A stretch of DNA of 34,517 nt, from positions 1 through 34,517 of IMG/VR virus record IMGVR_UViG_3300034167_000106. One strand, written 5' to 3'. Every line of letters begins with the position of its first letter. Position 1 is the stretch's first letter. Of the stretch, positions 3,522-34,517 are shown piece by piece. Made by a program: the position numbers and the translations under genes. Below the pieces are notes generated by a model. It was not told the DNA's origin. It saw only the letters and a list, made by a program, of their open reading frames with translations, and made no database searches. Source of the DNA: a virus.

Positions 3522-3890
3522 ATGATAAATTTAACGAAAGGACTTACCGAAACAATTTATTTCACAGGTACAGAAAAGGCTACTATTGCAAACCCTTTTT
3601 TTTTATTTGTGTTTATCCACAGGGTTACACTTGATGTTGTTAAGTTAATGGCAACGAATCAAAGTATTACTGGTAGATATGATAAATTTGCATTTACGGT
3701 TAACAACTTTTTTGATTTAAAGGAGGAGGGATTTTATAGTTATAAAATTTATCAAAAGGTATTGGTTACTGATTTTACAGTAGCAGGGATAGTGGTTGAA
3801 GAGGGGTTTATGTATCTTAATCCATCAACTGCATTTGAACCAACTAAATACGAAGAACAAAACAATAATTTCGTTACTTATGAATTATAA
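3522..3890 (+). CDS. Virion-region protein of unknown function
   Basis: A 122-residue protein lies between the tube-like and portal genes, and its last 11 bases overlap the portal start. It contains alternating beta-strand phrases (ETIYFTGTEKAT, FFLFVFIHRV, GFYSYKIYQKV) and ends in an acidic tail. I recognise no motif. The location and all-beta look suggest a minor head or connector component, but this is inference. Its start lies almost immediately after a terminator, so its expression is probably lower than that of the two genes upstream. Confidence 0.7.
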   Translation: MINLTKGLTETIYFTGTEKATIANPFFLFVFIHRVTLDVVKLMATNQSITGRYDKFAFTVNNFFDLKEEGFYSYKIYQKVLVTDFTVAGIVVEEGFMYLNPSTAFEPTKYEEQNNNFVTYEL

Positions 3891-5862: not shown

Positions 5863-6648
5863 ATGAGCGCAAATATATTATTCATATCGGAAAGTTTAAT
5901 TAAAAGCAGAACAGGAATAAGTGATGCAATAGATGGTAAACAATTAAAGCCACATATTAAGGTAGCACAGGATTTATATTTGCAGCCTGCATTGGGTTCA
6001 ACTTTATATCTTCGTTTGCAGTCAGGTATAGAAGCGGACAACCTTTCTAATTTAGAAAAAGTATTATTAGATAATTATATAACTGATTGCTTGCTATGGT
6101 ACACAATGAGTTTATTACCATTTGGATTAGGTTACCAGTTTTTCAGTAAAGGCATTCTTCAAAAGACAAGTGAAGAAAGCAACGCACCAAGCAGAGCAGA
6201 TTTAGAATTGATAGGTAACGAATATAAAAAGACTGCTGAATTTTATAAGCAAAGATTAATTAATTATTTAAGGGAGAATTACTTATTATATTCTCAATAT
6301 TTTAATCCTGCAAGTGGATTAGATGTTATTTTTCCCGAATTAAAAGCATATACAAGCCCTATTTATTTAGGTAATGTAGTTGATGGTGTAAGGGTGTTTT
6401 CTAATAATGCAACTACGGATGGGGCTACAACTATTTATCATACACCAGCAGCAGGGGATAATAGTTTTTCAGTTGGTGGATTGACTAATAAAGTGGTATT
6501 AATTGCAACAAGGTCAGGGCTAGTTAAAGGAATTACTAATTTACCTACTGCAAATCCAATGTATTTACAAATTGTTAATAATGTAGTTACGTTATCTACT
6601 GGTGATGTAACACAAGCAGCAGAAATATTTACATTCACAATAAGATAA
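5863..6648 (+). CDS. Head-tail connector-like protein
   Basis: This 261-residue gene starts directly at the base after the portal stop. Residues 1-150 are mostly helical (SESLIKSRTGISDAIDG; HIKVAQDLYLQPALGSTLY; DNYITDCLLWYTM), a pattern I associate with gp6-like head completion proteins in Bacteroidota prophages. From about residue 165 the protein becomes beta-rich (VVDGVRVFSNN, TTIYHTPAAGDNSF, LYLQ-like strands), which looks like an added small beta domain. The role would be to close the portal after packaging or join the tail. Position after the portal supports this; the family is not certain. Confidence 0.62.
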   Translation: MSANILFISESLIKSRTGISDAIDGKQLKPHIKVAQDLYLQPALGSTLYLRLQSGIEADNLSNLEKVLLDNYITDCLLWYTMSLLPFGLGYQFFSKGILQKTSEESNAPSRADLELIGNEYKKTAEFYKQRLINYLRENYLLYSQYFNPASGLDVIFPELKAYTSPIYLGNVVDGVRVFSNNATTDGATTIYHTPAAGDNSFSVGGLTNKVVLIATRSGLVKGITNLPTANPMYLQIVNNVVTLSTGDVTQAAEIFTFTIR

Positions 6649-6692: not shown

Positions 6693-7124
6693 ATGACTTA
6701 CAACCAATTAATAACAACAATAACAAGCCTATTGCAAAGCCATGCAATGATAGAGACGGCAAAGCACACAACCCCAAAAGAATGGTTGCTAAGGGATGAG
6801 CAGCCAATTTATCCAATAGCTTGCTTTTCTGTTAATTCGGGAACTATGAATATAGGCAGGGAGCAAGTGTTTTCTGTTCAATTTTTCTTTTTAGACAAAA
6901 GCGGAAAGGAAGCAGAATTTGAAAACGATGTTATAAGCGACCAAATACAAACTGCATCAGATATATTAAGCCTAATGAGAACAGGCAGGAATAGTTATTC
7001 AATAGATGATAACGTTTCGTTTAATGCAATATCGGATAAATACGAGGATTATTTAGCGGGTATAGAATACACAATTAACATTTCAACTCAAAACGAATTT
7101 ACAGGATGCAACGTGCCATTATAA
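6693..7124 (+). CDS. Tail terminator / tail completion-like protein
   Basis: A 143-residue alpha/beta protein follows the connector-like gene. It starts with a helix (TYNQLITTITSLLQSHAM) and continues with strands such as IYPIACFSVNSGTM and FSVQFFFLDKSG, then a helix with IQTASDILSLM. This pattern fits the small tail terminator or completion proteins that cap the tail tube. The call rests on size, secondary-structure look and position. Its end overlaps the fibre gene by 19 bases, so translation of the two is probably coupled. Confidence 0.5.
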   Translation: MTYNQLITTITSLLQSHAMIETAKHTTPKEWLLRDEQPIYPIACFSVNSGTMNIGREQVFSVQFFFLDKSGKEAEFENDVISDQIQTASDILSLMRTGRNSYSIDDNVSFNAISDKYEDYLAGIEYTINISTQNEFTGCNVPL

Positions 7125-10100
7125 TAATTTTATTATTTTTATCTTTTGGATTAAAAGCACAGGTTTACCAAGCTATGCCACAGGCTGGATATGGTCCTGT
7201 AAAAAGATTTTTAACAGATAGTGTTTTGACTATTCCAACTGGTATAAATTCTTTAAGAAATATAACTGGTGGAAGGGATGCAGGACAAATAAGATGGAAT
7301 ACAACTGATAGTAGTTTGTATATGTATAGTGGTTCACAATGGATTAAAATAAATACAGATACAAGTTCGTTAAATAATAAGATTAATGGTAAATTAAATA
7401 TAAGTGATACGGCTGCCATGCTTGCCACTTATTTAAATGCAAGTGATACTATCAGCCTTTCAAATAGAATAAATTTAAGGGTTAAATATTCAGATACTGC
7501 ATCGATGCTTTTACCATATTTACGAAAGTTAGATACTGCAAGTTTATCAGATAGGATTAATAAAAAAATGGATAGTTTAATATTAACTACCATTGGCACA
7601 GGTGGATTGGCAACGTTGCTAGGAACTACTTTAAATATTCCAAATTATAGCGGCGCATTAACTGGATATGTGCCATATTCAGGTGCAACAAATAACGTTA
7701 CATTAGGAAGTTATAATTTAACAGGAACTTTATTAAATGCAGATTATGCTTTACAGGTAAAAAATGGTGTTGGTGCTTATGGTAATTCTACTGTAAATTA
7801 TACTGCAATTACTTCAGATAATGGAAGTTTTAATTTTTTTACCAATTGGATGTCAGGACCAACATTATTTCAAAAGGGTGTGGCTTTCGTATATCCTACA
7901 AGCGGTACAACTTTTCAATATTTATTACCTATCCGAAATGGCACTTTAGCATTGGTAGAAGATACGGTAAGTTTATCAAATAGAATCAATGCGAAATTAG
8001 CAATAACGGACACAGTTTCTTTGTCAAATAGAATTAACCTAAAAGCAGATAAGTCCACTACCTTAACCATTAACGGGACTGGTTATGATTTAAGCGCAAA
8101 CAGAAGTTGGACTATCCCTACTACAGACACTACCAGCCTTTCTGATAGGATCAATACAGAGGCATCAAGGGCAACAACTGCGGAAGGATTAAAGCTGAAC
8201 ATATCAGACACAGCCGCTATGCTTAGTGCATACTACAAGGCTTCTAATCCAGCAGGATATATCACTGCTGCTGCTATTGCAGGGAAATTAAATATAAGTG
8301 ATACGGCTTCAATGCTATCTAATTACCAAAGTGCTATAAATGCTCGTGTTAAATATACCGATACTGCGGCAATGTTAGACCCCTATTTAACCGCTGCGGT
8401 AACAAGTGTAGGGTTATCAATGCCAGTTGCTTTTAATGTCAGCAATAGCCCTGTAACAAGCACAGGAACGATTGCAGTAACAGGAGCAGGAACGGCAGCA
8501 CAATATATTCGTGGTGATGGTCAATTGGCTACTTTGCCATCAGGTGCAAGCGGTGGAAGTTCGGTTGATTATTATTTAAATGGGGGAACAAGTCAGGGAA
8601 CTATTGGCGGAAGTACTTATTACGAAATGAGTAAAATTCCAGTTATAGGAACTGGCGCAGATTTTAATAGAACTAACGCACAAGGCAACGGATTAATTGC
8701 ACAATTTATTACTGATGTTGCAGACCCAAACAGGACAGAAATACCAGCAGGGGCATGGAATTTTGAAATGTTTTTTAGTGCTTCTTCAAATGGCGGTACA
8801 CCTTCATATTATATAGAATTATTAAAGTACGATGGTACTAATTTTACTTCGATTGCTAGTAGTTCGGCAGTACCTGAATTAATTACAAGCGGAACTATTA
8901 TTGATTTATATTTAACTTCTTTAGCAGTTCCATTTACTGCATTATCTATAACGGATAGATTAGTGGTAAGAGTTTATGTTACTACTTCAGGTAAGACAAT
9001 TACACTACATACTCAAAACGGACATCTTTGTTTGATTACAACAAGTTTTGCAGGTGGTGTAACATCGTTAAATGGGTTGGCTGCAAATACTCAATATTTG
9101 GCAGTTGATACGGTAGGAAGTGATTTTAATATTAACAGTTTAGTTGATACACATACTTTTAATTTACCGACTGCAAGCGCAACAAAACGAGGTGCTTTAA
9201 AGTCTGCGGATTGGTCAACCTTTAATGGTAAAATGAATTATTCAGATACTGTAAGTTTATCAAACCGAATTAATTTAAAATTAAATAGTGCAGATACGGC
9301 AAGTTTATCAAACAGAATTAATACAAAAGCAGACGCATTAAGCGGAACAACTAACACAATACCTAAATTCACTTCAGGAACTACAATAGGAAATAGTAAT
9401 ATAAAAGATGATGGAAATATAGTAAGTGTTAATGCAACGGCTGGAACTTTTGGTGCTTTGCAAGTTGGTAATTATAATGGTAATATTTTAATGAATACTA
9501 ACAATACAAGTGCAGGTTTAATATTTCAAAATACATCAGCATCCAATAAAAAATGGGATTTTTCTTCTTATAATAATGACCTATCTTTTAACGAATCAAA
9601 TGTTAATCCTGTAATGACTTTGCAAGCAGGGGGCAATGTGGGAATAAATGTAACTAACCCATCTAATAAATTAGAAGTGAATGGAACTTTTAAGTCGGTA
9701 GGTATTGCGACATTTGGCAGCACATTATCAAACGGAACTTATGCCTATACATTGCCATCTGGCACAGGTACATTAGCGCTTTCAAGTGCTTTTGATACTA
9801 CTTCATTAAGCAACCGAATAAATACAAAATTAAACATTAGTGATACTGCTTCTATGCTTAGCGGATACCAAAGCGCAATTAATTCTAAGCAACCACAATT
9901 AAATGGTACTGGTTTTGTAAAAGCATCAGGCACTACAATTAGTTATGATAATAATACCTATGCAACTACATCAGCATTAAGTGGATATTTACCATTGAGT
10001 GGAGGCACTTTAACAGGTGCTTTGGGTGCGACTAGTGCTACGTTTGTAAGTTCAAATGCAGCTGGAACATTAGGAGTTTATGCAAGTACATCAGGGAGGG

Positions 10101-11389
10101 GTATTATGATTAACCCAAATCTAACAGTTGGTCAAACTTCAATATATTCTGATTATTTAGGAGGTGCAGAACCTACTCTATATTTAGCTACTTATACAAA
10201 CAGGAGTAATGGTTTAGGGATAACTTTAAATACTAATGGAACAGTAACATTAGGTGCTGCTTTGGGTGGGACTAGTGCTACTTTCTCTAGTAGTGTAACT
10301 TCATCACAATTTATTTCTCCTTCAAATTTAAATAATTCTCAATTAAATACAGGAAGTGTAGAAATTCAATCTTATGTAGTAAATAATAGTTGGGTAGGAG
10401 ATAATGTTTATTATAATGGAACAAATTTTACTAGAAGAAATGCAGGATATGCTTCTCAACTTTATTTTGAAACAAGCGGTGCTATTGCCTTTTTTACTTC
10501 ACCAAGTGCAGCAGCAGGAACAACACCTTCATTTGTAAGAAGTCTAACATTAACTAATACAGGAGCAGCTACGTTTTCTAGTAGTGTAAGTGTTGGTGGG
10601 TATTTAACAGGAACAGGAGTTAACCCAGGAGGACTTGGTGGAAGTAGATACCTTATTGACTTTTCAGGAAATTATTCAAGGTTTTTTTCTTATGGTATTA
10701 ATAATGCTACAAATGGAGGATTTTTATTTAATTCACAAAGGAGTGATGGTACAAATAGTTTAGATTTTTTAACCATAGCCCCTACAGGAGCAGCTACGTT
10801 TAGTTCATCGATTGCTGCAACAGGAGTAGTAGACATAAAAGGTGTAGGTTCTAATACTTTAGGAAGTGGACCATATCTTGAAATGGGTTCACCAGCAGGA
10901 AATAGATATTTTTTAGAACAACTTAATGCTTCAGATGGATGTGATTTTTGGTATTATAACGGTTCATCTTGGGCGGTAAAACAAACATTTAATTCAGATG
11001 GTAATGTTAAATTTATTGGGTTAGCAGGTTCAGGAAGCAGAGCAGTTTTAGCTGATGCAAATGGTTTATTATCCGCTCCTGTATCGGATATTAGTGTAAA
11101 AGAAAATATTAAGCCTTTAGATTATGGTATAGCTGATATTATGAAATTAAAGCCTGTTTCATTTGAATATATTAAATCTTATAAAAACTACGGGAAAGGA
11201 AAGCAGATAGGAAACATTGCACAAGATATGGCAAAGGTAATTCCAGAAGCAGTTTTCACTACACCGTCAACAGGTAAGATGGGTATTAATTATGACCAAT
11301 TAAATGGTGTTTATATTAAAGCATTACAAGAGTTGCAGTTACAAAATGAAGCATTAATTAAAAGAATAGAAACATTAGAAAACAAATAA
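7106..11389 (+). CDS. Tail fibre with signal peptide, SDT-SLSNRIN repeats and S74 chaperone domain
   Basis: At 1427 residues this is the largest gene. The first 19 residues form a Sec-type signal peptide (basic start, IIIILLFLSFG core, KAQ end), rare for a virion protein. The shaft carries many copies of two short related modules: DTxSLSNRIN (for example near bases 7447, 7532, 7960, 8009, 8126, 9244, 9293, 9796) and NISDTAxMLxxY. Later repeats read GATSATF or GAATFSSS. The C-terminal 85 residues are a Peptidase_S74 intramolecular chaperone (SDISVKENI, then LKPVSFEY, IGNIAQDM, a closing coiled coil), which trimerises the fibre and cuts itself off, usually just before that Ser-Asp. The likely role is host receptor binding. 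Confidence 0.9.
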   Translation: MQRAIIIILLFLSFGLKAQVYQAMPQAGYGPVKRFLTDSVLTIPTGINSLRNITGGRDAGQIRWNTTDSSLYMYSGSQWIKINTDTSSLNNKINGKLNISDTAAMLATYLNASDTISLSNRINLRVKYSDTASMLLPYLRKLDTASLSDRINKKMDSLILTTIGTGGLATLLGTTLNIPNYSGALTGYVPYSGATNNVTLGSYNLTGTLLNADYALQVKNGVGAYGNSTVNYTAITSDNGSFNFFTNWMSGPTLFQKGVAFVYPTSGTTFQYLLPIRNGTLALVEDTVSLSNRINAKLAITDTVSLSNRINLKADKSTTLTINGTGYDLSANRSWTIPTTDTTSLSDRINTEASRATTAEGLKLNISDTAAMLSAYYKASNPAGYITAAAIAGKLNISDTASMLSNYQSAINARVKYTDTAAMLDPYLTAAVTSVGLSMPVAFNVSNSPVTSTGTIAVTGAGTAAQYIRGDGQLATLPSGASGGSSVDYYLNGGTSQGTIGGSTYYEMSKIPVIGTGADFNRTNAQGNGLIAQFITDVADPNRTEIPAGAWNFEMFFSASSNGGTPSYYIELLKYDGTNFTSIASSSAVPELITSGTIIDLYLTSLAVPFTALSITDRLVVRVYVTTSGKTITLHTQNGHLCLITTSFAGGVTSLNGLAANTQYLAVDTVGSDFNINSLVDTHTFNLPTASATKRGALKSADWSTFNGKMNYSDTVSLSNRINLKLNSADTASLSNRINTKADALSGTTNTIPKFTSGTTIGNSNIKDDGNIVSVNATAGTFGALQVGNYNGNILMNTNNTSAGLIFQNTSASNKKWDFSSYNNDLSFNESNVNPVMTLQAGGNVGINVTNPSNKLEVNGTFKSVGIATFGSTLSNGTYAYTLPSGTGTLALSSAFDTTSLSNRINTKLNISDTASMLSGYQSAINSKQPQLNGTGFVKASGTTISYDNNTYATTSALSGYLPLSGGTLTGALGATSATFVSSNAAGTLGVYASTSGRGIMINPNLTVGQTSIYSDYLGGAEPTLYLATYTNRSNGLGITLNTNGTVTLGAALGGTSATFSSSVTSSQFISPSNLNNSQLNTGSVEIQSYVVNNSWVGDNVYYNGTNFTRRNAGYASQLYFETSGAIAFFTSPSAAAGTTPSFVRSLTLTNTGAATFSSSVSVGGYLTGTGVNPGGLGGSRYLIDFSGNYSRFFSYGINNATNGGFLFNSQRSDGTNSLDFLTIAPTGAATFSSSIAATGVVDIKGVGSNTLGSGPYLEMGSPAGNRYFLEQLNASDGCDFWYYNGSSWAVKQTFNSDGNVKFIGLAGSGSRAVLADANGLLSAPVSDISVKENIKPLDYGIADIMKLKPVSFEYIKSYKNYGKGKQIGNIAQDMAKVIPEAVFTTPSTGKMGINYDQLNGVYIKALQELQLQNEALIKRIETLENK

Positions 11390-11396
11390 ATCAAAT

Positions 11397-11618
11397 ATGA
11401 AAAAAACAATCACAACCCTAGTAATGGCATTAACCATGTCAACAGTATTTGCCCAAGTATCCGATACATTAATTATACGTATCGACACCACAACTTTTAA
11501 GAACGTAATTGCAATTATACAAAAGCAATTGGATAGCAAAGCAGCAAGTGATTACATTTTGCAAGCATTGAGTAAATATGAATTAATATCAACAAAGCCT
11601 AAAGAAATAAAAAAGTAA
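11397..11618 (+). CDS. Small secreted protein with signal peptide
   Basis: A 73-residue protein starts 8 bases after the fibre stop. Residues 1-20 form a clear signal peptide with a basic start, a hydrophobic core and a TVFAQ end typical of Bacteroidota. The mature part begins with a strand (DTLIIRIDTTTF) and then one amphipathic helix. It belongs to a run of three successive signal-peptide genes including the fibre. No family is recognised. It could be a fibre-associated or periplasm-directed factor; nothing in the sequence decides between them. Confidence 0.75.
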   Translation: MKKTITTLVMALTMSTVFAQVSDTLIIRIDTTTFKNVIAIIQKQLDSKAASDYILQALSKYELISTKPKEIKK

Positions 11619-11619
11619 T

Positions 11620-11994
11620 ATGAAAAAAATAATCTTATCAGTTTTAGTGTTGGCATCATTGTCAACAAAAGCGCAAATGTTTAGAAATAATTCCGATACT
11701 GCAATAATTGGAAATGATACTATCTACTACCAAAAGGGTGGTATATTAATTAAGCCAGTTATTGTTAATTACAAAGGAGAGGACGCATGGTCATTAAGTT
11801 GGACTGCTAACAACCTTTCAAGCAACGGAGAAGGGTGTAATACATACGTAACATTAAGAGGTAAAAACAACAACCAGTTAGCTGATTTTAACTGTTATAT
11901 TCCTGCTTCAGTAGTTGCGGTTTGGGGAATTAGTAATGCTCCGATAGATTCTACAATCCTATCTCAATATCCAAGATTTGTAAAACAAGACTAA
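11620..11994 (+). CDS. Secreted beta-rich protein with signal peptide
   Basis: This 124-residue protein starts one base after the previous stop. The signal peptide (MKKIILSVLVLASLSTKAQ) is again of host Bacteroidota style. The mature part is beta-rich with aromatic strands (DTIYYQKGG, DAWSLSWTANNL, CNTYVTLRG) and two cysteines that could form a disulfide once exported (Cys in GEGCNTY and NCYIP). Export to the periplasm or cell surface during infection is implied, perhaps acting with the fibre or in superinfection exclusion; these roles are inference. No homologous family is recognised. Confidence 0.75.
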   Translation: MKKIILSVLVLASLSTKAQMFRNNSDTAIIGNDTIYYQKGGILIKPVIVNYKGEDAWSLSWTANNLSSNGEGCNTYVTLRGKNNNQLADFNCYIPASVVAVWGISNAPIDSTILSQYPRFVKQD

Positions 11995-12152
11995 TGAACT
12001 GGCACGATTACAAAATATACATATTGAATGGGGTTGCGCTTTCGGTATCTCTTACAAGTATTGAAACATATTTACGCATTTCATTATTAGTCCTTTCAAT
12101 AGCATACACAATTTTTAAACTTTTAAAAAATGATAAAAATGAAAAATCTTAA
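11994..12152 (+). CDS. Small membrane protein (possible holin/antiholin partner)
   Basis: The ATG overlaps the previous stop by one base (TAATG) and opens a 52-residue frame ending at 12152, overlapping the next gene by 23 bases. The sequence has a polar start (MNWHDYKIYIL), one or two hydrophobic segments (NGVALSVSLTS; ISLLVLSIAYTIF) and a basic tail (KLLKNDKNEKS). Tight overlaps on both sides and placement at the front of the lysis genes support it as real. It could be part of the holin system. Confidence 0.65.
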   Translation: MNWHDYKIYILNGVALSVSLTSIETYLRISLLVLSIAYTIFKLLKNDKNEKS

Positions 12153-12321
12153 AACAAGTTTGGCTGGTTTATTGGCTGGTATGCCATTTGTTATTGATGC
12201 GCTTATGCAAGCCTATACGGCTGGTTCTTTTACCAACAAAAGCGGTCTACAATTAGTTGCAGCTATCGGGGTGGTTCTTTTAGGTCTATACAGTAAAGAC
12301 CACGATGTTAAAGGTCTTTAA
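12130..12321 (+). CDS. Holin-like small membrane protein
   Basis: A 63-residue protein precedes the spanin-like and lysozyme genes. It has two hydrophobic segments, LAGLLAGMPFVIDALMQAY and LQLVAAIGVVLLGLY, separated by a short polar turn, and ends in SKDHDVKGL. Small Bacteroidota phage membrane proteins ending in a similar AKDxxVTG phrase are familiar beside endolysins and are presumed holins that time lysis. An internal ATG at 12139 (MKNLKTS) is an equally plausible start, giving 60 residues. The 3' end overlaps the spanin gene by 17 bases. Confidence 0.7.
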   Translation: MIKMKNLKTSLAGLLAGMPFVIDALMQAYTAGSFTNKSGLQLVAAIGVVLLGLYSKDHDVKGL

Positions 12322-12814
12322 GTTATTAGTAGCAGTTATCCTATTAGGGGGCTGCTACACCCAATTTAAAGCTACCAAACAAGTTGACAAGGCGTTGGCT
12401 CATTATCCGCAAATAGTGGCTAGAATCGCCTTAGATTCTTTTCCTTGTGATGTTATCCGTATCGATACGTTTATATCCGTAAGAGATTCAATTATTGAAT
12501 GTATTCCAGTAGAAAACTTTACAACCCTGTCCCAAATAGATACAATATATGGGACTAAAAAAGTATTTATAAAGTTGCCTATTAGGACAACTTACATTAC
12601 CAAAGTGGTTGAATCAACTGCAAAGCTAGCCATAATTAACGCTCAATTGGATTCGGTTAATAATGTGATTCGCGAATTGCAAAAGGCAAAGGGTGAACTA
12701 ACTGGTAAGGTTGATAGAAAGAATAAAGTTATTTGGTGGCTTATTGGTCTTTTATTGTTATTGTCAATTCCATTAGTTATCCGCATTTTCAAGATGTTAT
12801 CAATAAATATATAG
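12305..12814 (+). CDS. Candidate unimolecular spanin (lipobox plus C-terminal membrane segment)
   Basis: This 169-residue protein begins with a lipoprotein signal: MLKVFKLLVAVILLGG followed by Cys17 (lipobox LLGGC). A predicted periplasmic part spans about residues 18-140 and includes a helical, coiled-coil-like stretch (residues 104-138, AKLAIINAQLDSVNNVIREL). A single hydrophobic segment (about 142-162, VIWWLIGLLLLLSIPLVI) lies near the C-terminus. An outer-membrane lipid anchor at one end and an inner-membrane anchor at the other is the architecture of u-spanins such as T1 gp11, which fuse the two membranes after wall degradation. The position between holin-like protein and lysozyme fits. 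An alternative is an Rz-like protein with a chance lipobox. Confidence 0.65.
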   Translation: MLKVFKLLVAVILLGGCYTQFKATKQVDKALAHYPQIVARIALDSFPCDVIRIDTFISVRDSIIECIPVENFTTLSQIDTIYGTKKVFIKLPIRTTYITKVVESTAKLAIINAQLDSVNNVIRELQKAKGELTGKVDRKNKVIWWLIGLLLLLSIPLVIRIFKMLSINI

Positions 12815-12823
12815 TTTTACAAT

Positions 12824-13276
12824 ATGAAGCAGCCATCTGAAGAATTTTACCGATTAATAAAGTTATTTGAAGGGTGTAAATTAGAGGCTTACAGATGCCC
12901 TGCTAATGTGGTAACTATTGGGTGGGGTAGTGTTTTAGATAGTAAAGGGAATGCATTTCACATGGGTGCTAAAATAACACAGGCTGATGCTGATTTACTT
13001 TTGAAAAATGAAGTTAATAAAAAAGCAAAGTTTTTAAATAAAGAATTGGGAAAAACAGAAGTAACGCAAAATCAATTTGATGCGCTTTTGTCATTTCAAT
13101 ATAATTGTGGTAATGCTGCATTAAGCAGAAGTACATTATTCAGAAGGGTAAAGACAGACCCTAATGATAGTTTTATTATATCAGAATTTGCAAAATGGAA
13201 CAAGGCAGGCGGTAAAGAAGTTAAGGGATTATCAATAAGAAGATCAATGGAATCAAAACTTTATTTCACAAAATAA
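12824..13276 (+). CDS. Endolysin, GH24 lysozyme
   Basis: This 150-residue protein matches the T4/P22-type lysozyme family (GH24), which cuts the MurNAc-GlcNAc bond of peptidoglycan. The active-site region reads LFEGCKLEAYRCPANVVTIGWG: Glu16, then Cys25 after 8 residues, then Thr31 after 5, the E-8-D/C-5-T triad in which Cys replaces the usual Asp in some members. A helix with NQFDALLSFQYNCGNAALSRS, typical of the C-terminal lobe, follows. There is no signal peptide or anchor, so it should need the holin for release. It sits 9 bases after the candidate spanin. Confidence 0.93.
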   Translation: MKQPSEEFYRLIKLFEGCKLEAYRCPANVVTIGWGSVLDSKGNAFHMGAKITQADADLLLKNEVNKKAKFLNKELGKTEVTQNQFDALLSFQYNCGNAALSRSTLFRRVKTDPNDSFIISEFAKWNKAGGKEVKGLSIRRSMESKLYFTK

Positions 13277-27204: not shown

Positions 27205-27584
27205 GTTTAGAGAAACAACCACATGGAGGATTTTTAAATAGATACGAGAAAGGGGCAGCATGGAAAGGTAACCGTAATGGCAGACCTAGAAAGTACATAA
27301 CTGAATTAGCCCCACACGGTTACAAGAATGCTCAAGTAATGGATTGCATTCAGGTATTAATGGCAATGACTACAAAAGAACTACAAGAGATTTTAAAAAA
27401 TGAAGATAGCACAGTACTTGAAAGAACCTTAGCCAATGCACTATTAAAATCATTAAGTAAAGGTTCTTTATATTCAGTAGATACTTTATTGAGCAGGGTA
27501 TATGGTAAGCCAAAAGAAACAACGGCAGTAATACAAGACTCAAAGATTGAAGTAGTATTTGTAAAGGGTAAAACTATTTTATGA
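27201..27584 (+). CDS. terS: Terminase small subunit-like protein
   Basis: A 127-residue basic protein directly before TerL, with a 4-base overlap on each side. The N-terminus has an AWKGNRNGRPRKY motif, common in small terminase-like and DUF5681-type phage proteins, followed by a helical core (KNAQVMDCIQVLMAMTTKELQEIL; LERTLANALLKSLSKG) and a short strand end (KIEVVFVKGKTIL). Small terminases bind the packaging site and activate TerL. Position and basic N-terminus support this; no crystal-type HTH is obvious. Confidence 0.75.
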   Translation: MSLEKQPHGGFLNRYEKGAAWKGNRNGRPRKYITELAPHGYKNAQVMDCIQVLMAMTTKELQEILKNEDSTVLERTLANALLKSLSKGSLYSVDTLLSRVYGKPKETTAVIQDSKIEVVFVKGKTIL

Positions 27585-28766: not shown

Positions 28767-29408
28767 ATGACAATTAAGCAATTTCAAGAGTTGTACTATG
28801 TGGCTACTTCCGAAGATATGGACTTTGATAAGTCTATTAAGATGGTGGGGATAGTAACTAAAAAGACACCCGAGCAAGTAGAGGCAATGTCAATGATTAG
28901 GTTTAATTTACTTTGTGGCAGGGTGCATAATGAATTTAGGATATTCGAGAAAGACTTAATGAAGGGAAAGCCTAGAAAAATAGTAAGAGTAGGAAAGCGA
29001 TTCTATAAAATTAATTACGATGTAGCAAAATGTAAAGCATCAACCTATGTTGAAGTGGCAACTTTTAGCACGGATATAATTCAGAACCTGCACAAAATAA
29101 TGGCTTCAATAGTAACACCAGTTAGATTTAAATGGGGTAAGTGGGTTGAGCATGAAGAACTTGCAACGGATTTAGAAAAGATGGATTTTGAGGTGGCTTA
29201 CCATGCAGCGGTTTTTTTTTACACTTTATTCAACGTATCAATGCAAGTTATCCAGCCCTATTTGGTAGCAGAGATGACAAAGAAAGGGATAGCGAAGGAG
29301 AAAGCGACGGAGATATTGACGATTTCACAAAACATTTTGGATGGCTTTACAATGCCAAGATGGTCGCAGACTTCGAAAGAATATCTATTGAATCGGTTTG
29401 GAATTTAA
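28767..29408 (+). CDS. Tail-assembly-chaperone-like protein, zero-frame product
   Basis: A 213-residue helical protein following TerL. The core includes TPEQVEAMSMIRFNLL, RVHNEFRIFEKDL and ATDLEKMDFEVAYHAAVFFYTLFNV. In the zero frame, translation passes a run of nine T (29212-29220), and the last 45 codons (from about 29276) use G-ending codons (GCG, ACG, GAG, TCG, CGG) that are rare elsewhere here. The -1 frame over the same DNA has normal codon use and continues to 29491, overlapping the next gene. This is the arrangement of lambda G/GT-type tail assembly chaperones, with short and frameshifted long forms. The distance from the tape measure is unusual for such a pair. Confidence 0.7.
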   Translation: MTIKQFQELYYVATSEDMDFDKSIKMVGIVTKKTPEQVEAMSMIRFNLLCGRVHNEFRIFEKDLMKGKPRKIVRVGKRFYKINYDVAKCKASTYVEVATFSTDIIQNLHKIMASIVTPVRFKWGKWVEHEELATDLEKMDFEVAYHAAVFFYTLFNVSMQVIQPYLVAEMTKKGIAKEKATEILTISQNILDGFTMPRWSQTSKEYLLNRFGI

Positions 29409-29491
29409 AAGTAATTAATTTTTTAAATGATTTGCTTTATTTAAAATTAAAACAGGATAAGGATAATGAGTATATCAAAAAGTCAGCTTGA
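29192..29491 (+). CDS. -1 frame extension of the upstream gene (probable programmed frameshift)
   Basis: The frame one base behind the zero frame is open from 29192, just after a TGA at 29189-29191, to a TGA at 29489-29491. It has no good early start codon, so it would be read by slipping from the zero frame, most simply at the T9 run. Its encoded sequence includes DKERDSEGESDGDIDDFTKH, an acidic linker, and then FGWLYNAKMVADFE and VINFLNDLLYLKLK, a compact helical domain with the normal codon use of this phage. It fills the otherwise empty gap after 29408 and overlaps the next start at 29466 by 26 bases, as adjacent genes here usually do. Confidence 0.68.
   Translation, partial: GGLPCSGFFLHFIQRINASYPALFGSRDDKERDSEGESDGDIDDFTKHFGWLYNAKMVADFERISIESVWNLKVINFLNDLLYLKLKQDKDNEYIKKSA
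29212..29220 (+). other. T9 homopolymer, candidate -1 slippery site
   Basis: Nine consecutive T occur in the codon context GTT TTT TTT TAC. It lies within the window (29192-29408) where the zero and -1 frames are both open and allows the T-TTT-TTT type of tandem slip. No clear downstream pseudoknot was identified by eye. Transcriptional slippage is an alternative mechanism at such a run. Confidence 0.6.
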
Positions 29492-30098
29492 TAATTTTGC
29501 TAAAATAGGTAAGTCGGATTACACTATTGATGATGCTTATGTGCCTGATTTAAATAATACAACATTGGCTTTTTTTGAACAATATGCTAAAACATTTTTT
29601 GAAGAAATACAAAAAGAATTAAAAGATAAAAAAGTAAAAAGGGCAAGCGGTGATTTAGCAGATAATACAAAAGTAGTTGCAAATGAGGATGGAAGCGGTA
29701 TAAAGATATCAATGATTAACTACTATGATTTTGTAAATAAAGGAGTTAAGGGTGTAAGAAGTTCAACAAATGCACCAAGTAGTCCATATAAATACAAGAC
29801 TTATGGAATGCCTTTAAGTGCTAGGATTGGGATTAAAAAATATATTGAAAGCGGTAAAGCAAGCATAAGAGAAGAAACATCTAAAAAAACAATAATAGCA
29901 GCGCAAAAAAAGACTGTTTCAATTGATTTACAAGTTCAAACAATGGTTTATCTAATTAAGAAATGGGGTATAAAAACAACTAACTTTTTTGATAACGCAA
30001 CGGAAAGAGTAACCAAAGATTTAAGTGAAGATTTAATGTATCTAATTGGAAAAACTATAATAGTAAAAATTGGGCAACCTAAAAAGAAAAGTAAATGA
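29466..30098 (+). CDS. HK97 gp10-like tail completion / head-tail joining protein
   Basis: A 210-residue protein. Residues 35-125 contain an FFEEIQKELKDKK helix, a strand (GIKISMINYYDFVNKGVKG) and SPYKYKTYGMPLS, the layout of HK97-gp10-like proteins in Bacteroidota phages, where the YxxFVxxGVKG phrase is recurrent. The C-terminus is a helix followed by a basic tail KIGQPKKKSK. Such proteins finish the head-tail interface or the tail tube end. It overlaps the next gene by 4 bases. Confidence 0.7.
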   Translation: MSISKSQLDNFAKIGKSDYTIDDAYVPDLNNTTLAFFEQYAKTFFEEIQKELKDKKVKRASGDLADNTKVVANEDGSGIKISMINYYDFVNKGVKGVRSSTNAPSSPYKYKTYGMPLSARIGIKKYIESGKASIREETSKKTIIAAQKKTVSIDLQVQTMVYLIKKWGIKTTNFFDNATERVTKDLSEDLMYLIGKTIIVKIGQPKKKSK

Positions 30099-31243
30099 GT
30101 ATAACAATTAATACAAACCCTGCAAGCGGAAGCACGGCACAAGATGACCTTTGGCACGTTGCTACAAGTACTGCTTCAGGTAGTACAGACATGAAATACA
30201 TATTCGAGGTATATGTAGGTGGCAATAGGAAAATATCAGTAAGGCAATTCCCCGAACCTTCAACAGGTAAAGCATATTTTAACGCAGGGGCTACGGTACG
30301 CAATAGCATCACTTTTAATTGGTTTGAGCCAGTTGGTACGGCATACGTTTACGAGCCAAATTTAAGCGGTGAAATGGCGGTACAATACGATATTAGAGTA
30401 GGTGAGGAAGTTAGCGGAATAACAACCTTTAACCTTGCTTCAGGAACTACAACGGCATACAATTACAATGCTCCTTTATTAAAGCGAAGGGTATTAAGTT
30501 TGTCTGATAGATTAAACAAATGGTTAACCAATAGACCGCTTTACGCAAATACCAAACTAGGTGAAAATTTATATATTCCATTTTATACCAATGTAAACCT
30601 AAATTTAAAATGTGCAACCTATGATGGAAGTAATAATGTTATAGCATCAGCAACTGGAAGCACTACTACAATAGAGAATGGCTTTGTACAAATGAATATC
30701 GGTAGCGCTGCTATTGCAACCGAATTAGGAATAACAATAAATGATAGTGTAAAGTATTATGAAGTTTGGTTTAATAGTTTTGATAAAATAAGGGTTAACG
30801 TTGTCTGCAATCCAAAGTATGACCCAATTAATATTCACTTTGTAAATGCTTGGGGAATGTGGGATAGTGAAAGATTTGATTTAGTCAGTAGGCTTAATAT
30901 GTCGGTTGAACGTAAAGCATTTGAGCAAAGAGATTACAGATTTAATGGTAATGCAGTTGATTACAAAAGCACATCAAATAGATATTATGAAGGGGCAATT
31001 AATTATAGCAATAAATCAAACTTTACTTATAAGATAACTGCCGATGCTTTAACCGATGACGAATATAATTGGATGGCTGACCTTATAGCATCCCCACAAA
31101 TACTGATGGAGATTGACAGTTACTTTTATCCTGTAACATTAGTGGAAAATAATTATGAGTTTAGCAAAAATGTATTTAACAAATTAAAGGCTTTAGAGTT
31201 AACGTTTAACATGAACCAAACAAGATATTCCCAATTAAGATGA
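30095..31243 (+). CDS. Distal tail / minor tail protein
   Basis: A 382-residue beta-rich protein upstream of the large tail-tip-like gene. It starts SITINTNPASGSTAQDDLWHVAT and proceeds through Ig-like strand patterns (MKYIFEVYVGGNRKI; YDIRVGEEVSGIT), then a region with FVNAWGMWDSERFDLVSRLNMSVERK and a C-terminal ANxF-like strand set (DSYFYPVTLVENNYEFSK). It is similar in character to tail-tip proteins in Bacteroidota phages. It likely forms a ring or adaptor at the tail end. Its stop and the next start overlap by 4 bases. Confidence 0.7.
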   Translation: MSITINTNPASGSTAQDDLWHVATSTASGSTDMKYIFEVYVGGNRKISVRQFPEPSTGKAYFNAGATVRNSITFNWFEPVGTAYVYEPNLSGEMAVQYDIRVGEEVSGITTFNLASGTTTAYNYNAPLLKRRVLSLSDRLNKWLTNRPLYANTKLGENLYIPFYTNVNLNLKCATYDGSNNVIASATGSTTTIENGFVQMNIGSAAIATELGITINDSVKYYEVWFNSFDKIRVNVVCNPKYDPINIHFVNAWGMWDSERFDLVSRLNMSVERKAFEQRDYRFNGNAVDYKSTSNRYYEGAINYSNKSNFTYKITADALTDDEYNWMADLIASPQILMEIDSYFYPVTLVENNYEFSKNVFNKLKALELTFNMNQTRYSQLR

Positions 31244-33270
31244 CAAGAATATTAATCGAAGGATTCGACCTAGATATAGATAAAGGATTGAGCAATCAAA
31301 TTACTTATTCGGTAAGTGATTTAAAAGCAATAGACACTAAGACAACATCATTTAGTAAAACAATTATATTGCCAGGAACTGCAAATAATAATAATTTACT
31401 AGGTAATATTTTTGAGTTTAATAATGCTAATTATACAAACATTGTAGACCCAAATGTAAAGTATAATTACAACGCAAGTAAGACGGCTAATTGTAGCATT
31501 CAAGTAAACGGAATGACAGTAATTAAAGGAGTATTTAAATTACTTGAAATTATTATTGATGGTAAGAATATAGAGTATGAATGTAGTGTTATCGGTGAAC
31601 TTGGTGGATTGTCAATGAAGATGGGGGCAAAGAAAATTGAGGAATTAGATTTTAGCGATTACAACCACGTTTACAGTATTGCAAATATTACTGGAAGTTG
31701 GGCGAATGAAAATGCTGGTGCTGGTTATTACTATCCCCATATTGATTACGGAACTTATTCAACCGATAAAAAGAATTGGAAATATGGCACGTTTAGACCT
31801 GCTTTATTTGTAAAAGAATATTTAGAAAAAATCTTTGATGCGAATGGCTATACCTATGAATGTGATTTATTTAGCACAGATAGATTTAAACGTTTAATCA
31901 TACCACATAACTTAAAAAAAATAGTAAGCTATCTAACAGGTCAAATGGAGTTAGCTGCTAAAATTGCAACGTATACAGGCGCAACCGCTTGGAGATGGAA
32001 TGCAGTAACATTAGGTGATTTCCTTTCGGGTGATATTGATGGCGAAAGCTGGTATTATAACGGGGCAAGTACAATAACTGCCAATTTTAAAATAGCATTA
32101 TCAGGTCAGGTTATTTCGCAGGACTTTGCAGGGGTTAAACCTTTTGAATTAAGAAAAAATGGAGTGATTATCGGATTTGTAAATATAACAACAGGAAGCA
32201 GCTTACCTTTTACATTTTCAAATAAACAAATAAACGTTAATAATGTAAGCATTGCAAATGGTGATACATTTACCGTAACTTATCCATCATACAGTATTAC
32301 ATCATTAAGGCAGATTACAAGTTCATTTAAGGTAAGTACTAATTCAGTTAGCCCTGTAACCATTAATCTAGGTGATACTATTACAATAAATGATTGCATC
32401 CCTAAAAACATTCTGCAAAAAGATTTCTTTGCTTCAATACTAAAGCTATTTAATCTTTATGTAGACGAGAATCGCTTTGATGAAAAGCATTTAATTATTA
32501 AACCTTATGTTGATTATTATGATGGTAGTGTAGAGGATTGGAGTGATAAGGTAGACAGGGGCAAACCGATAAGGATTAAGCCTATGTCGGAGTTAAACAG
32601 TCGTTATTATATGTTAAAATATAAAGATGACAATGACTATTACAATGAGTTATATAAAAAAAGATATAATGAAGGATATGGCAGCAGAATGTTTGACAGT
32701 GAATACGAATTTTCAAAAGAAACGGAAAATGTAGAATTGATTTTTGCACCAACACCATTGGTAGGTTATGCAGGAGAAGAAAAGGTTTATAGCACTATAT
32801 TTAAACAAACAAATGCGCTAGAAGAAACTATTGATTCAGTTATTAGAATATTAATAGCAAAGAAAATTACAGGGGTAGCAAGTTACAATATCCTAGATGG
32901 TGCAACTGTATTAACAAGCCAAACCGTTTATGGTTATGCAGGACACTTTGATGATCCTGATGCGGTAGCAAATGATTTAAACTTTGGAGCAACACAAGAA
33001 TTATTTTTTACATTGGTAAGTGGTGCTTTAAATGTTAATCAGTTCAATGTTTATTATAGTCCGTACATGGCAGAAATTACAGATAAGGACAGTAGGCTAT
33101 TAACTTGTAATGTAAAATTAACCGATGTAGATATATTTAATTTAAATTTTGCTTCATTTAAATATATTGATGGCGGTTTGTATAGATTAATTAAGCTAAA
33201 CGATTACACACCAGAAGCAAACGACACAACGAAGGCAGATTTTTTAAGGGTAATAAATAAAGAATATTAA
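31240..33270 (+). CDS. Large tail-tip / baseplate hub-like protein
   Basis: A 676-residue protein. The N-terminus (RILIEGFDLDIDKGLSNQITYSVSDL, then KTIILPGTANNNNLLGNIFEF) and the later block FKLLEIIIDGKNIEYECSVIGE are typical of a tail-hub protein type in Bacteroidota phages. The central part has EYLEKIFDANGYTYE; the last third includes KPMSELNSRYYMLKYKDDNDYYNELY and a final beta region (LTDVDIFNLNFASFKYIDGG). It would sit at the tail tip and work with the fibre to open the envelope. No lytic domain is visible. The tape measure starts one base after its stop. Confidence 0.72.
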   Translation: MTRILIEGFDLDIDKGLSNQITYSVSDLKAIDTKTTSFSKTIILPGTANNNNLLGNIFEFNNANYTNIVDPNVKYNYNASKTANCSIQVNGMTVIKGVFKLLEIIIDGKNIEYECSVIGELGGLSMKMGAKKIEELDFSDYNHVYSIANITGSWANENAGAGYYYPHIDYGTYSTDKKNWKYGTFRPALFVKEYLEKIFDANGYTYECDLFSTDRFKRLIIPHNLKKIVSYLTGQMELAAKIATYTGATAWRWNAVTLGDFLSGDIDGESWYYNGASTITANFKIALSGQVISQDFAGVKPFELRKNGVIIGFVNITTGSSLPFTFSNKQINVNNVSIANGDTFTVTYPSYSITSLRQITSSFKVSTNSVSPVTINLGDTITINDCIPKNILQKDFFASILKLFNLYVDENRFDEKHLIIKPYVDYYDGSVEDWSDKVDRGKPIRIKPMSELNSRYYMLKYKDDNDYYNELYKKRYNEGYGSRMFDSEYEFSKETENVELIFAPTPLVGYAGEEKVYSTIFKQTNALEETIDSVIRILIAKKITGVASYNILDGATVLTSQTVYGYAGHFDDPDAVANDLNFGATQELFFTLVSGALNVNQFNVYYSPYMAEITDKDSRLLTCNVKLTDVDIFNLNFASFKYIDGGLYRLIKLNDYTPEANDTTKADFLRVINKEY

Positions 33271-33271
33271 A

Positions 33272-34517
33272 ATGGCAAAACAAGTATTAGCATTTGAAAT
33301 AACAACGGATTCAAAACAAGCAGAAGCATCGGTAGGTACTTTTAAAAAACAATTAAGAGAGGCTAACAATGAATTGCTAAATATGGCTTCGCAGTTTGGT
33401 GAAACATCAAAGGAGGCTATTAATGCAGCTAAGAAAGTAGCAGGATTAAAGGATGCCATCGGTGATGCAAAAGCACTAGCAGAAACATTTAACCCCGATA
33501 AAAAGTTTGTTGCTTTGGGTGGTGCTTTACAAGGTGCAGTAGCTGGATTTAGTGCCTTACAAGGTGCTATGGGTTTATTTGGTGCAGAGGGTAAGGATGT
33601 GGAAAAAATGATGCTAAAGGTACAAAGTGCAATGGCTTTGCAGCAGGGAATTAGCGGTATCGCTGGGGCAATGGATTCATTTAAGTTATTAGGTAATGAG
33701 ATTAAGGGGAATGTGACAAAAGCATTTAGCACATTAAAGGGAGCGATAGCAGCAACAGGAATAGGGTTATTAGTTATTGGGGTTGGTTTACTTGTAGCAA
33801 ACTTTGAGAAAGTTAAACAAGTAATGCTTAATTTAATTCCTGGACTTGAAAAGGTTACGGATTTCTTTGGTAAAATGATTGATGCAGTTACTGATTTTGT
33901 TGGTGTAACAAGTGAAGCGGACAGGGCATTAGAATCGCTTAATAATAAAACCAATGAAAGGAATAAAACAATAGACCAACAATTAAAGGTACTTGGTGCA
34001 ATGGGTAATCAAGAGGGGGCAATGCACAAACTAAAGCAAGAACGTGCAGCTTCTGAAGTTGAAATGTTATTGCAAAAAACAAACAGAACACAAGAAGAAA
34101 ATGATAAAATAATAGCTTTAAATACTGAAAGAACAGTTAATGAAATTGAGAATAATAACAGAATACAAAAGAATAGGGAAGATTTAGCAAAGAAAAATGA
34201 AGAAACAAGATTAAAAGAAGAAGAAAAATTAAAAAAACAAAAAGAACTAGCAGATAAATTAAGGTTAGCTACTTTTATTGCAAAACAAAAAGAACAAGAT
34301 TCAGATATTGAATTTGGTTTAAAATTACAAGAAGAACAAGATGCGATTGATAAAAAAGAAGTAGAAAGAAAAGCTGGAATTAAAAAAAGTCAAGAAGAAA
34401 TAAATGCTCATTTTTTTCAACTTAGATTAAAAAACCTTCAAGATGTTCAGGCGAATGCAGATAAAGAAAAAGAAATTGATAGGGCGAAATTAGCTGCAAA
34501 AATGGAATTTATAGATG
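33272..34517 (+). CDS. Tape measure protein, N-terminal part (continues at 1-585)
   Basis: The ATG at 33272 opens a frame with no stop to the window end; it continues at base 1 through the terminal overlap and stops at 585, giving about 567 residues. The N-terminus (AKQVLAFEITTDSKQAEASV, then TFKKQLREANNELL) resembles the start of many siphovirus tape measures. A hydrophobic segment (about residues 155-173, AATGIGLLVIGVGLLVANF) is followed by a long charged coiled coil (about 225-390, rich in Gln, Glu, Lys). A rough 1.5 angstrom per residue rule would suggest a tail of about 85 nm. The antisense frame here (33244-33954) is a shadow. Confidence 0.88.
   Translation, partial: MAKQVLAFEITTDSKQAEASVGTFKKQLREANNELLNMASQFGETSKEAINAAKKVAGLKDAIGDAKALAETFNPDKKFVALGGALQGAVAGFSALQGAMGLFGAEGKDVEKMMLKVQSAMALQQGISGIAGAMDSFKLLGNEIKGNVTKAFSTLKGAIAATGIGLLVIGVGLLVANFEKVKQVMLNLIPGLEKVTDFFGKMIDAVTDFVGVTSEADRALESLNNKTNERNKTIDQQLKVLGAMGNQEGAMHKLKQERAASEVEMLLQKTNRTQEENDKIIALNTERTVNEIENNNRIQKNREDLAKKNEETRLKEEEKLKKQKELADKLRLATFIAKQKEQDSDIEFGLKLQEEQDAIDKKEVERKAGIKKSQEEINAHFFQLRLKNLQDVQANADKEKEIDRAKLAAKMEFID
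34391..34517. repeat. Terminal direct repeat, right copy
   Basis: These 127 bases are identical to 1-127 and mark circular closure. Removing one copy gives a 34,390-bp genome with an intact tape-measure gene. Confidence 0.97.

Follow-up and report, generated by a model that had tools for sequence, protein, structure and literature searches.

The locus described here raises the question of why a phage fibre should begin with a signal peptide for export; tailed-phage virion proteins are normally cytoplasmic. The window, i.e. the whole stretch of DNA analysed (IMG/VR virus record IMGVR_UViG_3300034167_000106; 34,517 bases, GC 32%), contains on its + strand an open reading frame (ORF) of 1427 aa, at 7106..11389, predicted to encode a fibre with a Peptidase_S74 domain near its C-terminus. 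Predicted export signals, conserved among relatives, were confirmed on this ORF and on the two following ones, at 11397 and 11620, in addition to a lipoprotein signal on the ORF at 12305. The interpretation favoured here, considered somewhat likely as a whole, is that of an adhesion fibre which is exported, glycosylated by the host and docked on the tails at lysis.

The signal peptide predicted for the fibre, of the Sec/signal peptidase I type, spans 18 aa (7106..7159) and precedes a Gln at 7160-7162; the ORF starts with MQRAIIIILLFLSFGLKA, followed by Q. The 73-aa protein encoded at 11397..11618 and the 124-aa protein encoded at 11620..11994, both on the + strand, start with MKKTITTLVMALTMSTVFA and MKKIILSVLVLASLSTKA, respectively, each again followed by Q (signal peptides at 11397-11453 and 11620-11673). 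All three have a basic start of a few residues, then a hydrophobic core, a small residue at -1 and Gln at +1, a layout corresponding to the Q-rule of Bacteroidetes signal peptides, as given in the available parts of PMC5837995 and PMC10653852. Signals were scored by using a home-made hydrophobicity/cleavage score, which assigned the four top values, among 62 ORFs of the window, to 7106, 11620, 12305 and 11397. A score of 3.4 combined with Gln at +1 was reached by 9 of 3100 shuffled N-termini of window ORFs (42 of 3100 with any residue at +1). Shuffles of their own composition equalled the observed score 0, 2 and 50 times per 5000 for 7106, 11620 and 11397, respectively, the last signal being the weakest of the three when taken alone. 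The earlier note on this DNA had placed Bacteroidota signal peptides on these three consecutive genes, and both the score, which ranks all three within the best four, and the conservation reported below bear this out. It had also considered that homologues might truly start further downstream; relatives keep both the start and the signal, and M24, the next Met, is absent in several of them (e.g. L089, L093-L097, L101, L104 and L114), so that an internal start at this position was discarded.

A search with the fibre start identified 57 relatives in IMG/VR, of which 56 were readable, and signal plus Gln was recognized by eye in 56/56. In order to avoid the bias of this search, relatives were also collected through the connector gene, and the best 80 of 235 loci were kept; the two sets overlap. 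The fibre start could be read in 70 of the 80 loci, the contigs of the other 10 ending at most 510 nt from the connector. The script looked for Q[VTA]Y[QA], and zero readable slots failed: all 70 carry the signal and Gln at +1, with A, G or S at -1. K or R was found near the start of each of the 41 distinct fibre signals. Homologues of the two small proteins showed signal and Gln in 37/37 (11397) and 39/39 (11620) cases, some of the loci sharing a contig. The small protein after the fibre has a signal in some lineages and lacks it in their sisters, where the fibre keeps its own; small proteins without signal are also seen at the 11620 position in sister lineages. Two residues of the mature 11620 protein, C73 and C92, are kept in 9/9 aligned relatives, as would fit an oxidising compartment.

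Selection on the signal was evaluated as the ratio of nonsynonymous to synonymous change (dN/dS). At positions -3 to +1 the ratio was 0.00 and 0.07 in the two length classes, made up of 13 and 10 distinct sequences, and 0.02 and 0.05 over the first 16 codons of the mature fibre, where synonymous change is clear. Values for the whole signal (0.64 and 0.94) are not informative, because synonymous changes are likewise few in this segment, whose first codons are shared with the upstream gene. The conservation across relatives indicates that the signals are real, and export of the fibre is predicted with good confidence.

The mature protein starts with an N-terminal domain (QVYQxMPQxGY...W; 7160..7351), followed by a body of D-T-x-SLSNRI / SDTxxML repeats (7358..11083) and by the S74 intramolecular chaperone domain (Pfam PF13884; 11084..11254), which scores 44.0 bits against a curated cut-off of 22; a coiled-coil-like end comes after it. 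The S-D...K pattern, which we take to be catalytic, is found in the window, self-cleavage and trimerisation being putative here. Among relatives the N-terminus is fixed and the C-terminus freely swapped, and S74 is missing from the end of some slot relatives that are complete. In L003-L030 the swapped C-termini belong to several S74 subtypes or to none, the last residues (..KNEALIKRIETLENK) being unchanged in many. The AlphaFold2 models of the fibre N-terminus and of the 124-aa protein (predicted local distance difference test scores of 62 and 53) were too uncertain for a fold search.

The gene order of the window is also found in a neighbouring clade (L133-L212; at least 593 relatives were found, of which the best 80 were used), whose connector is 47-49% identical in the three genomes measured. 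Fibres of this clade start with MESKKINQLAT... and have no signal: a fibre start was visible in 70 of the 80 loci (the contig ends before it in the other 10) and a signal in 0/70, the best signal score being 1.11. Five genomes with and three without the signal were compared, and their tail and head genes are the same. In addition, 56/63 signal-bearing fibres match the bodies of 46/59 signal-less ones (E<=1e-8), with best values of 61% over 273 aa and of 68% over a C-terminal stretch of 102 aa. A home-made S74 profile was matched by 19/63 signal-bearing and 30/59 signal-less slot fibres, some contigs being cut, and L060, a contig from a Chitinophagaceae metagenome-assembled genome (MAG) belonging to the signal-less clade, carries the S74 type of the window at 69% identity. 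The same gene order and the shared body and tip modules therefore point to one fibre slot, which occurs with and without an export start; the signal is present or absent as one block with the fibre N-terminus. On the portal tree the signal label needs two changes, the signal-bearing L057 grouping with the signal-less clade; a second origin of the signal is unsure, since L057 forms a long branch. A profile of the N-terminal domain only reaches L049b (6.5e-6), L042 (5e-4) and L057 (1.6e-3), matches that are suggestive of a shared module, short of proof. Relatives of the capsid gene were found in three further genomes of the MAG UBA8137 family: the L313 stretch has a fibre-sized ORF without signal, and no fibre-sized ORF was recognized in the stretches of L314 and L315.

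According to the available sections of a review (PMC12871550), Bacteroidota O-glycosylate non-cytoplasmic proteins at D[S/T][AILVMT], and Asp cannot be exchanged for Glu in B. fragilis and seldom is elsewhere; this review does not contain the word phage. Motifs were counted in de-duplicated sets and compared with shuffles within each protein. Signal-bearing fibres showed 409 motifs versus 141.6 in the shuffles, a ratio of 2.89 (36/63 kept after de-duplication), whereas signal-less fibres showed 78 versus 142.2 (0.55; 41/59 kept). When proteins were considered singly, the ratio was above 1 in 62/63 of the former and 3/59 of the latter. The first 80 residues of the mature fibres alone contain 54 motifs versus 6.7. 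The spanin-like lipoproteins related to 12305 have 100 versus 10.5 (24/65 kept, 4/69 having been dropped for lack of a lipobox), a second spanin set 11 versus 0.8 (2/7 kept) and the small signal proteins 6 versus 1.1 and 9 versus 1.5, an excess of 5- to 13-fold for these families. Ratios for virion and cytoplasmic families were 0.66 for the portal, 0.79 for the major capsid protein (MCP) type, 0.67 for the connector and 0.78 for the tape-measure protein (TMP) type; further families gave 1.12 (endolysin), 1.16 (terminase), 1.27 (30095), 1.28 (31240) and 1.48 (helicase, 1 versus 0.7), and the metallophosphatase 0 versus 0.6, the terminase, helicase and metallophosphatase values resting on one or two distinct sequences. 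Within the window, the four signal genes contain 25 motifs versus 6.8 and 43 other ORFs 15 versus 21.0; the mature fibre accounts for 17, of which 16 lie in the body and 1 in the N-terminal domain, and the 73-aa and 124-aa proteins for 2 and 3. Control motifs were not in excess in signal-bearing fibres (0.61 for E[ST]h, 0.78 for N[ST]h, 0.68 for D[ST] followed by other residues), and the third-position bias was seen only after D (0.76 versus 0.45). Glycosylation of the fibre, if exported, is predicted from these counts as fairly likely. As side observations, no other proteins counted are as rich in the motif as the relatives of 12305 (about 9-fold), including those from the clade with signal-less fibres, and the motif is depleted (about 0.55-0.8), beyond mere non-enrichment, in the L133-L212 fibres and in the portal, capsid-type and TMP-type families.

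Host proteins were analyzed for comparison. The S74 domain is present in 57/198 Bacteroidota genomes, and 27 of the 30 best-match host loci, counted by eye, start with a signal plus Gln, the other 3 having no readable start. Host proteins combining a signal with S74, which the earlier note had proposed to look for, are therefore common in Bacteroidota chromosomes; like the window fibre, they have signal, Gln and a C-terminal S74, but their N-terminal domain is a different one (often QVPQGFNFQAVA...) and they lack a motif excess. One such gene, at 6531-8312 of L061, is chromosomal, encodes an S74 48% identical to that of the window and has non-phage neighbours. A genome scan with a single pattern found the fibre N-terminal domain in no host, and a profile of this domain gave only three weak matches in 296 Bacteroidota genomes: two are unrelated cell proteins, with no more in common than a signal peptide or a few generic residues, and the third is L283. 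As regards the suggested capture of the fibre from a secreted host protein, these comparisons do not show that the N-terminus came from a host. In a Chitinophagaceae MAG sample of 20 contigs or contig parts, the motif ratio was 2.04 for Q-rule proteins (n=11), 1.48 for lipoproteins (n=9) and 0.67 for cytoplasmic proteins (n=18). Enrichment in non-cytoplasmic proteins holds for the phage signal proteins but not for the host S74 proteins. Since signal-bearing host S74 proteins have no excess, the motif does not come with export as such, and its inheritance from these proteins was ruled out on the same ground.

In the proposed mechanism, the products of 7106, 11397, 11620 and 12305 would pass through the host Sec translocon and then be cleaved, signal peptidase I exposing the Gln, from which a host cyclase would make pyroglutamate, and signal peptidase II cutting the 12305 lipoprotein. 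The S74 fibre would trimerise in the periplasm, where the general O-glycosylation system of the host would modify the D[S/T][AILVMT] sites, 17 per fibre chain. It would stay a phage adhesion fibre, waiting in the periplasm until holin, endolysin and spanin open the envelope, and would then attach to tails by the N-terminal domain, which is conserved in the mature protein. Each of these steps (export as such, its timing, trimerisation, glycosylation, docking) is inferred, docking from the slot, the shared modules and the fact that the window encodes no other fibre. Slot equivalence, module sharing and gene content give an even chance that the protein is a fibre of the virion, the location preferred here over the cell.

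Several observations weigh against this interpretation. The 28 host S74 proteins with a visible signal have 45 motifs versus 55.7 (0.81; 0.93 in an earlier count including three unsure rows). The reversed motif reaches 1.43 in signal-bearing fibres and is in excess in 11397 (5/0.8), and small proteins without signal reach 7/4.3 (1.63, n=11). A large share of the excess in fibres comes from repeats, with D-T at helix starts predicted by AlphaFold2 at low confidence, so that helix capping could explain part of it; leaving out the repeat units lowers the ratio to 1.62 in signal-bearing fibres, compared with 0.52 in the signal-less clade. The 36 de-duplicated fibres represent one clade and are not independent events. 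A second large, beta-helix-like protein follows the fibre in L100, L105 and L115, three of the 38 readable loci of the signal-bearing clade. The phage host, putatively a freshwater Chitinophagaceae-like bacterium to judge from related phage contigs in MAG UBA8137, is not pinned to a species. Among isolates, no signal-bearing fibre was found: the candidates inspected in P12024S, lotta8-1, Peternella_1 and FPSV-S1 have no signal.

The main rival, in our view rather unlikely, shares the evidence for export and places the exported, host-glycosylated fibre off the virion, either in the periplasm or at the outer membrane of the infected cell. There it would mask receptors, or keep progeny from adhering to the dying cell and to debris from it, in a Llp-like role. 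Export of only a fraction of the fibre to block receptors, the last option of the earlier note, is possible. The two further small signal-bearing proteins adjoining the fibre, the second signal-bearing beta-helix protein in three relatives and the fact that signal-bearing S74 proteins are ordinary cell proteins of Bacteroidota speak for it. The slot and body modules are, however, common to the signal-less fibre of the neighbouring clade, a fixed N-terminus with a swapped C-terminus is what is usually seen where one end attaches and the other binds a receptor, and the fibre gene sits in a structural and lysis stretch, overlapping the preceding gene.

Export may also be real and the motif excess a by-product of fibre architecture, with D-T capping helices in coiled-coil repeats and no glycosylation. 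This reading, which we judge unlikely, agrees with the helices modelled, at low confidence, right after D85-T86 and around D101-T102, with the loss of 240/409 sites when repeat units are removed and with the lack of excess in signal-bearing host S74 proteins; it does not account for the absence of excess in the N[ST]h and E[ST]h controls, for a third-position bias restricted to D, for the excess shared by spanins and small signal proteins or for that of the first 80 mature residues. Very improbable, finally, is a silent signal, as put forward in the earlier note, in which the fibre is assembled in the cytoplasm and its hydrophobic start is unused or a mere structural helix. The usual cytoplasmic assembly of virion proteins and the signal-less fibres with related bodies agree with it, but the residues at -1 and +1 and the basic start are invariably kept, dN/dS is near zero at the cleavage site, signal and N-terminus behave as a block, and the motif excess is found only in signal-bearing proteins. 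Secretion by the type IX system was rejected, as the fibre has no C-terminal sorting domain and S74 is its sole Pfam match up to E 0.1. The interpretation given in the earlier note is, as a whole, partly supported; the O-glycosylation signature and the signal-less clade lay beyond its view.

The record most probably represents an entire phage genome in circularly permuted form, because both ends of the window share an exact direct repeat of 127 bases (1-127 = 34391-34517); a tape-measure-like gene is split by them. The terminase gene starts at 27581 and presumed tail genes, so assigned from their place, run from 28767 to 33272 on; the head protease starts at 616, a capsid-type protein at 1930, the portal at 3796/3880 and the DUF6712 connector at 5863, followed by a 143-aa gene (6693-7124), whose end is overlapped by the first codons of the fibre. 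No second fibre-size gene without assignment is present in the window. Downstream of the small signal proteins, all on the + strand, are a membrane-protein-like ORF of 52 aa (11994..12149; below the 60-aa listing limit, and also present in L003, L010, L015, L017 and L031), a holin-like ORF of 63 aa (12130..12321), so named for its size, hydrophobic segments and place, a unimolecular-spanin-like lipoprotein (12305..12814) with lipobox LLGGC, a C-terminal hydrophobic segment and 3 O-glycosylation motifs, and an endolysin (12824..13276; Pfam Phage_lysozyme) without signal peptide. Neither 12130 nor 12305 had a match in Pfam or PHROG, and the spanin identity is suggested by the layout. ORFs resembling homing endonucleases are inserted beside the fibre slot in L017 (10505-11038), L159, L188, L209 and L212; that of L017 resembles window ORF 22506, and the endonuclease label was given by look.

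Six more loci (L039, L042, L047, L049, L055 and L058) were found through the fibre repeats, each encoding a large fibre-like protein with signal and Gln; apart from a connector-like match in L039, they do not match the structural genes of the window. In five of them, where the contig reaches on, further signal-plus-Gln proteins lie beside the fibre, and in L042 baseplate-hub-like genes are directly upstream of it. Motif counts of these fibres are biased, the search repeats containing the motif, and those of neighbours less so: ten neighbours with signal and Gln, one of which (a 441-aa ORF of L049) is itself fibre-like, have 24 versus 6.7, and 44 non-signal proteins 32 versus 32.0. The second large proteins mentioned above (L105, as L223 11048-13921, - strand; L100; L115, 4481-6208) start with ..LLA/TNYYISNSG, ..VFA/TNFYVSNSG and ..CFG/RKFYFSSS, which are signal-like without Gln at +1. 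That of L105 matches Pfam Beta_helix and, weakly, SprB and Hoc-like proteins; they are possibly exported spikes or polysaccharide-binding proteins. The slot fibre is thus not the sole candidate adhesin in every relative; the assessment of the readings is unchanged, because the window itself has none.

In the phage collection, tblastn with the fibre start gave no match, and the whole fibre matched short stretches only, mostly the S74 end, in phages of other hosts. Portal and MCP-type queries led to an isolate, Nonlabens phage P12024S, a more distant relative with a slot without signal, and the baseplate query to isolates of the Winoviridae, in which the fibre candidates inspected lack a signal; further isolate queries returned nothing or unrelated tail fibres. 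Two Winoviridae isolates encode small signal-plus-Gln proteins near holin or amidase genes (L285, 15072-15437; L284, 20342-20752).

The window fibre resembles known Peptidase_S74 (endosialidase chaperone) fibres and spikes in its C-terminal domain and differs from them by the Sec signal peptide with Gln at +1. Mycobacteriophages also have glycosylated virion proteins, but the transferases are phage-coded there, and periplasmic and host-coded ones are proposed here. Llp of phage T5 is likewise an exported phage protein blocking a receptor, as supposed in the main rival reading, but it is a small lipidated protein and no fibre. In the available parts of PMC10367356, Porphyromonas gingivalis phages (proposed Nixviridae) carry Q-rule signals with Gln at +1 on five genes of unknown function, whereas in the window it is the fibre that bears one; signals on capsid proteins, likely cut by the prohead protease, and on spanins were set aside by those authors. 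The general O-glycosylation described in the sections available of PMC12871550 concerns the same motif in non-cytoplasmic proteins; the phage glycans are predicted here from the motif. In the passages available, a study of diversity-generating retroelements took missing signal peptides as support for a phage origin of their targets (PMC6199706), PMC8143477 and PMC3338817 name signal peptides in methods lines only, and PMC12386605 has host O-glycosylation in one sentence of its discussion. Signal-bearing tail fibres or O-glycosylated Bacteroidota phage proteins were not reported among the open-access literature matches listed.

As a tentative generalization, several groups of Bacteroidota tailed phages may send their receptor-binding fibre through Sec into the periplasm and have it capped there with pyroglutamate and O-glycans by host enzymes. 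Assembly would then use two compartments, the sugar-coated fibre being added at lysis, and not before, to particles made in the cytoplasm. Under this reading a tailed-phage virion would be partly built outside the cytoplasm and carry host sugars, with a bearing on adsorption, on resistance to proteases or immunity and on the role of the Bacteroidota O-glycan. Should the fibre instead remain on the cell, the phage would still use the export machinery of the host, and probably its glycosylation machinery, for fibre-like proteins. The absence of a signal peptide is an unsafe mark of phage origin in Bacteroidota, and motif enrichment may offer a cheap mark of phage proteins that are truly exported.

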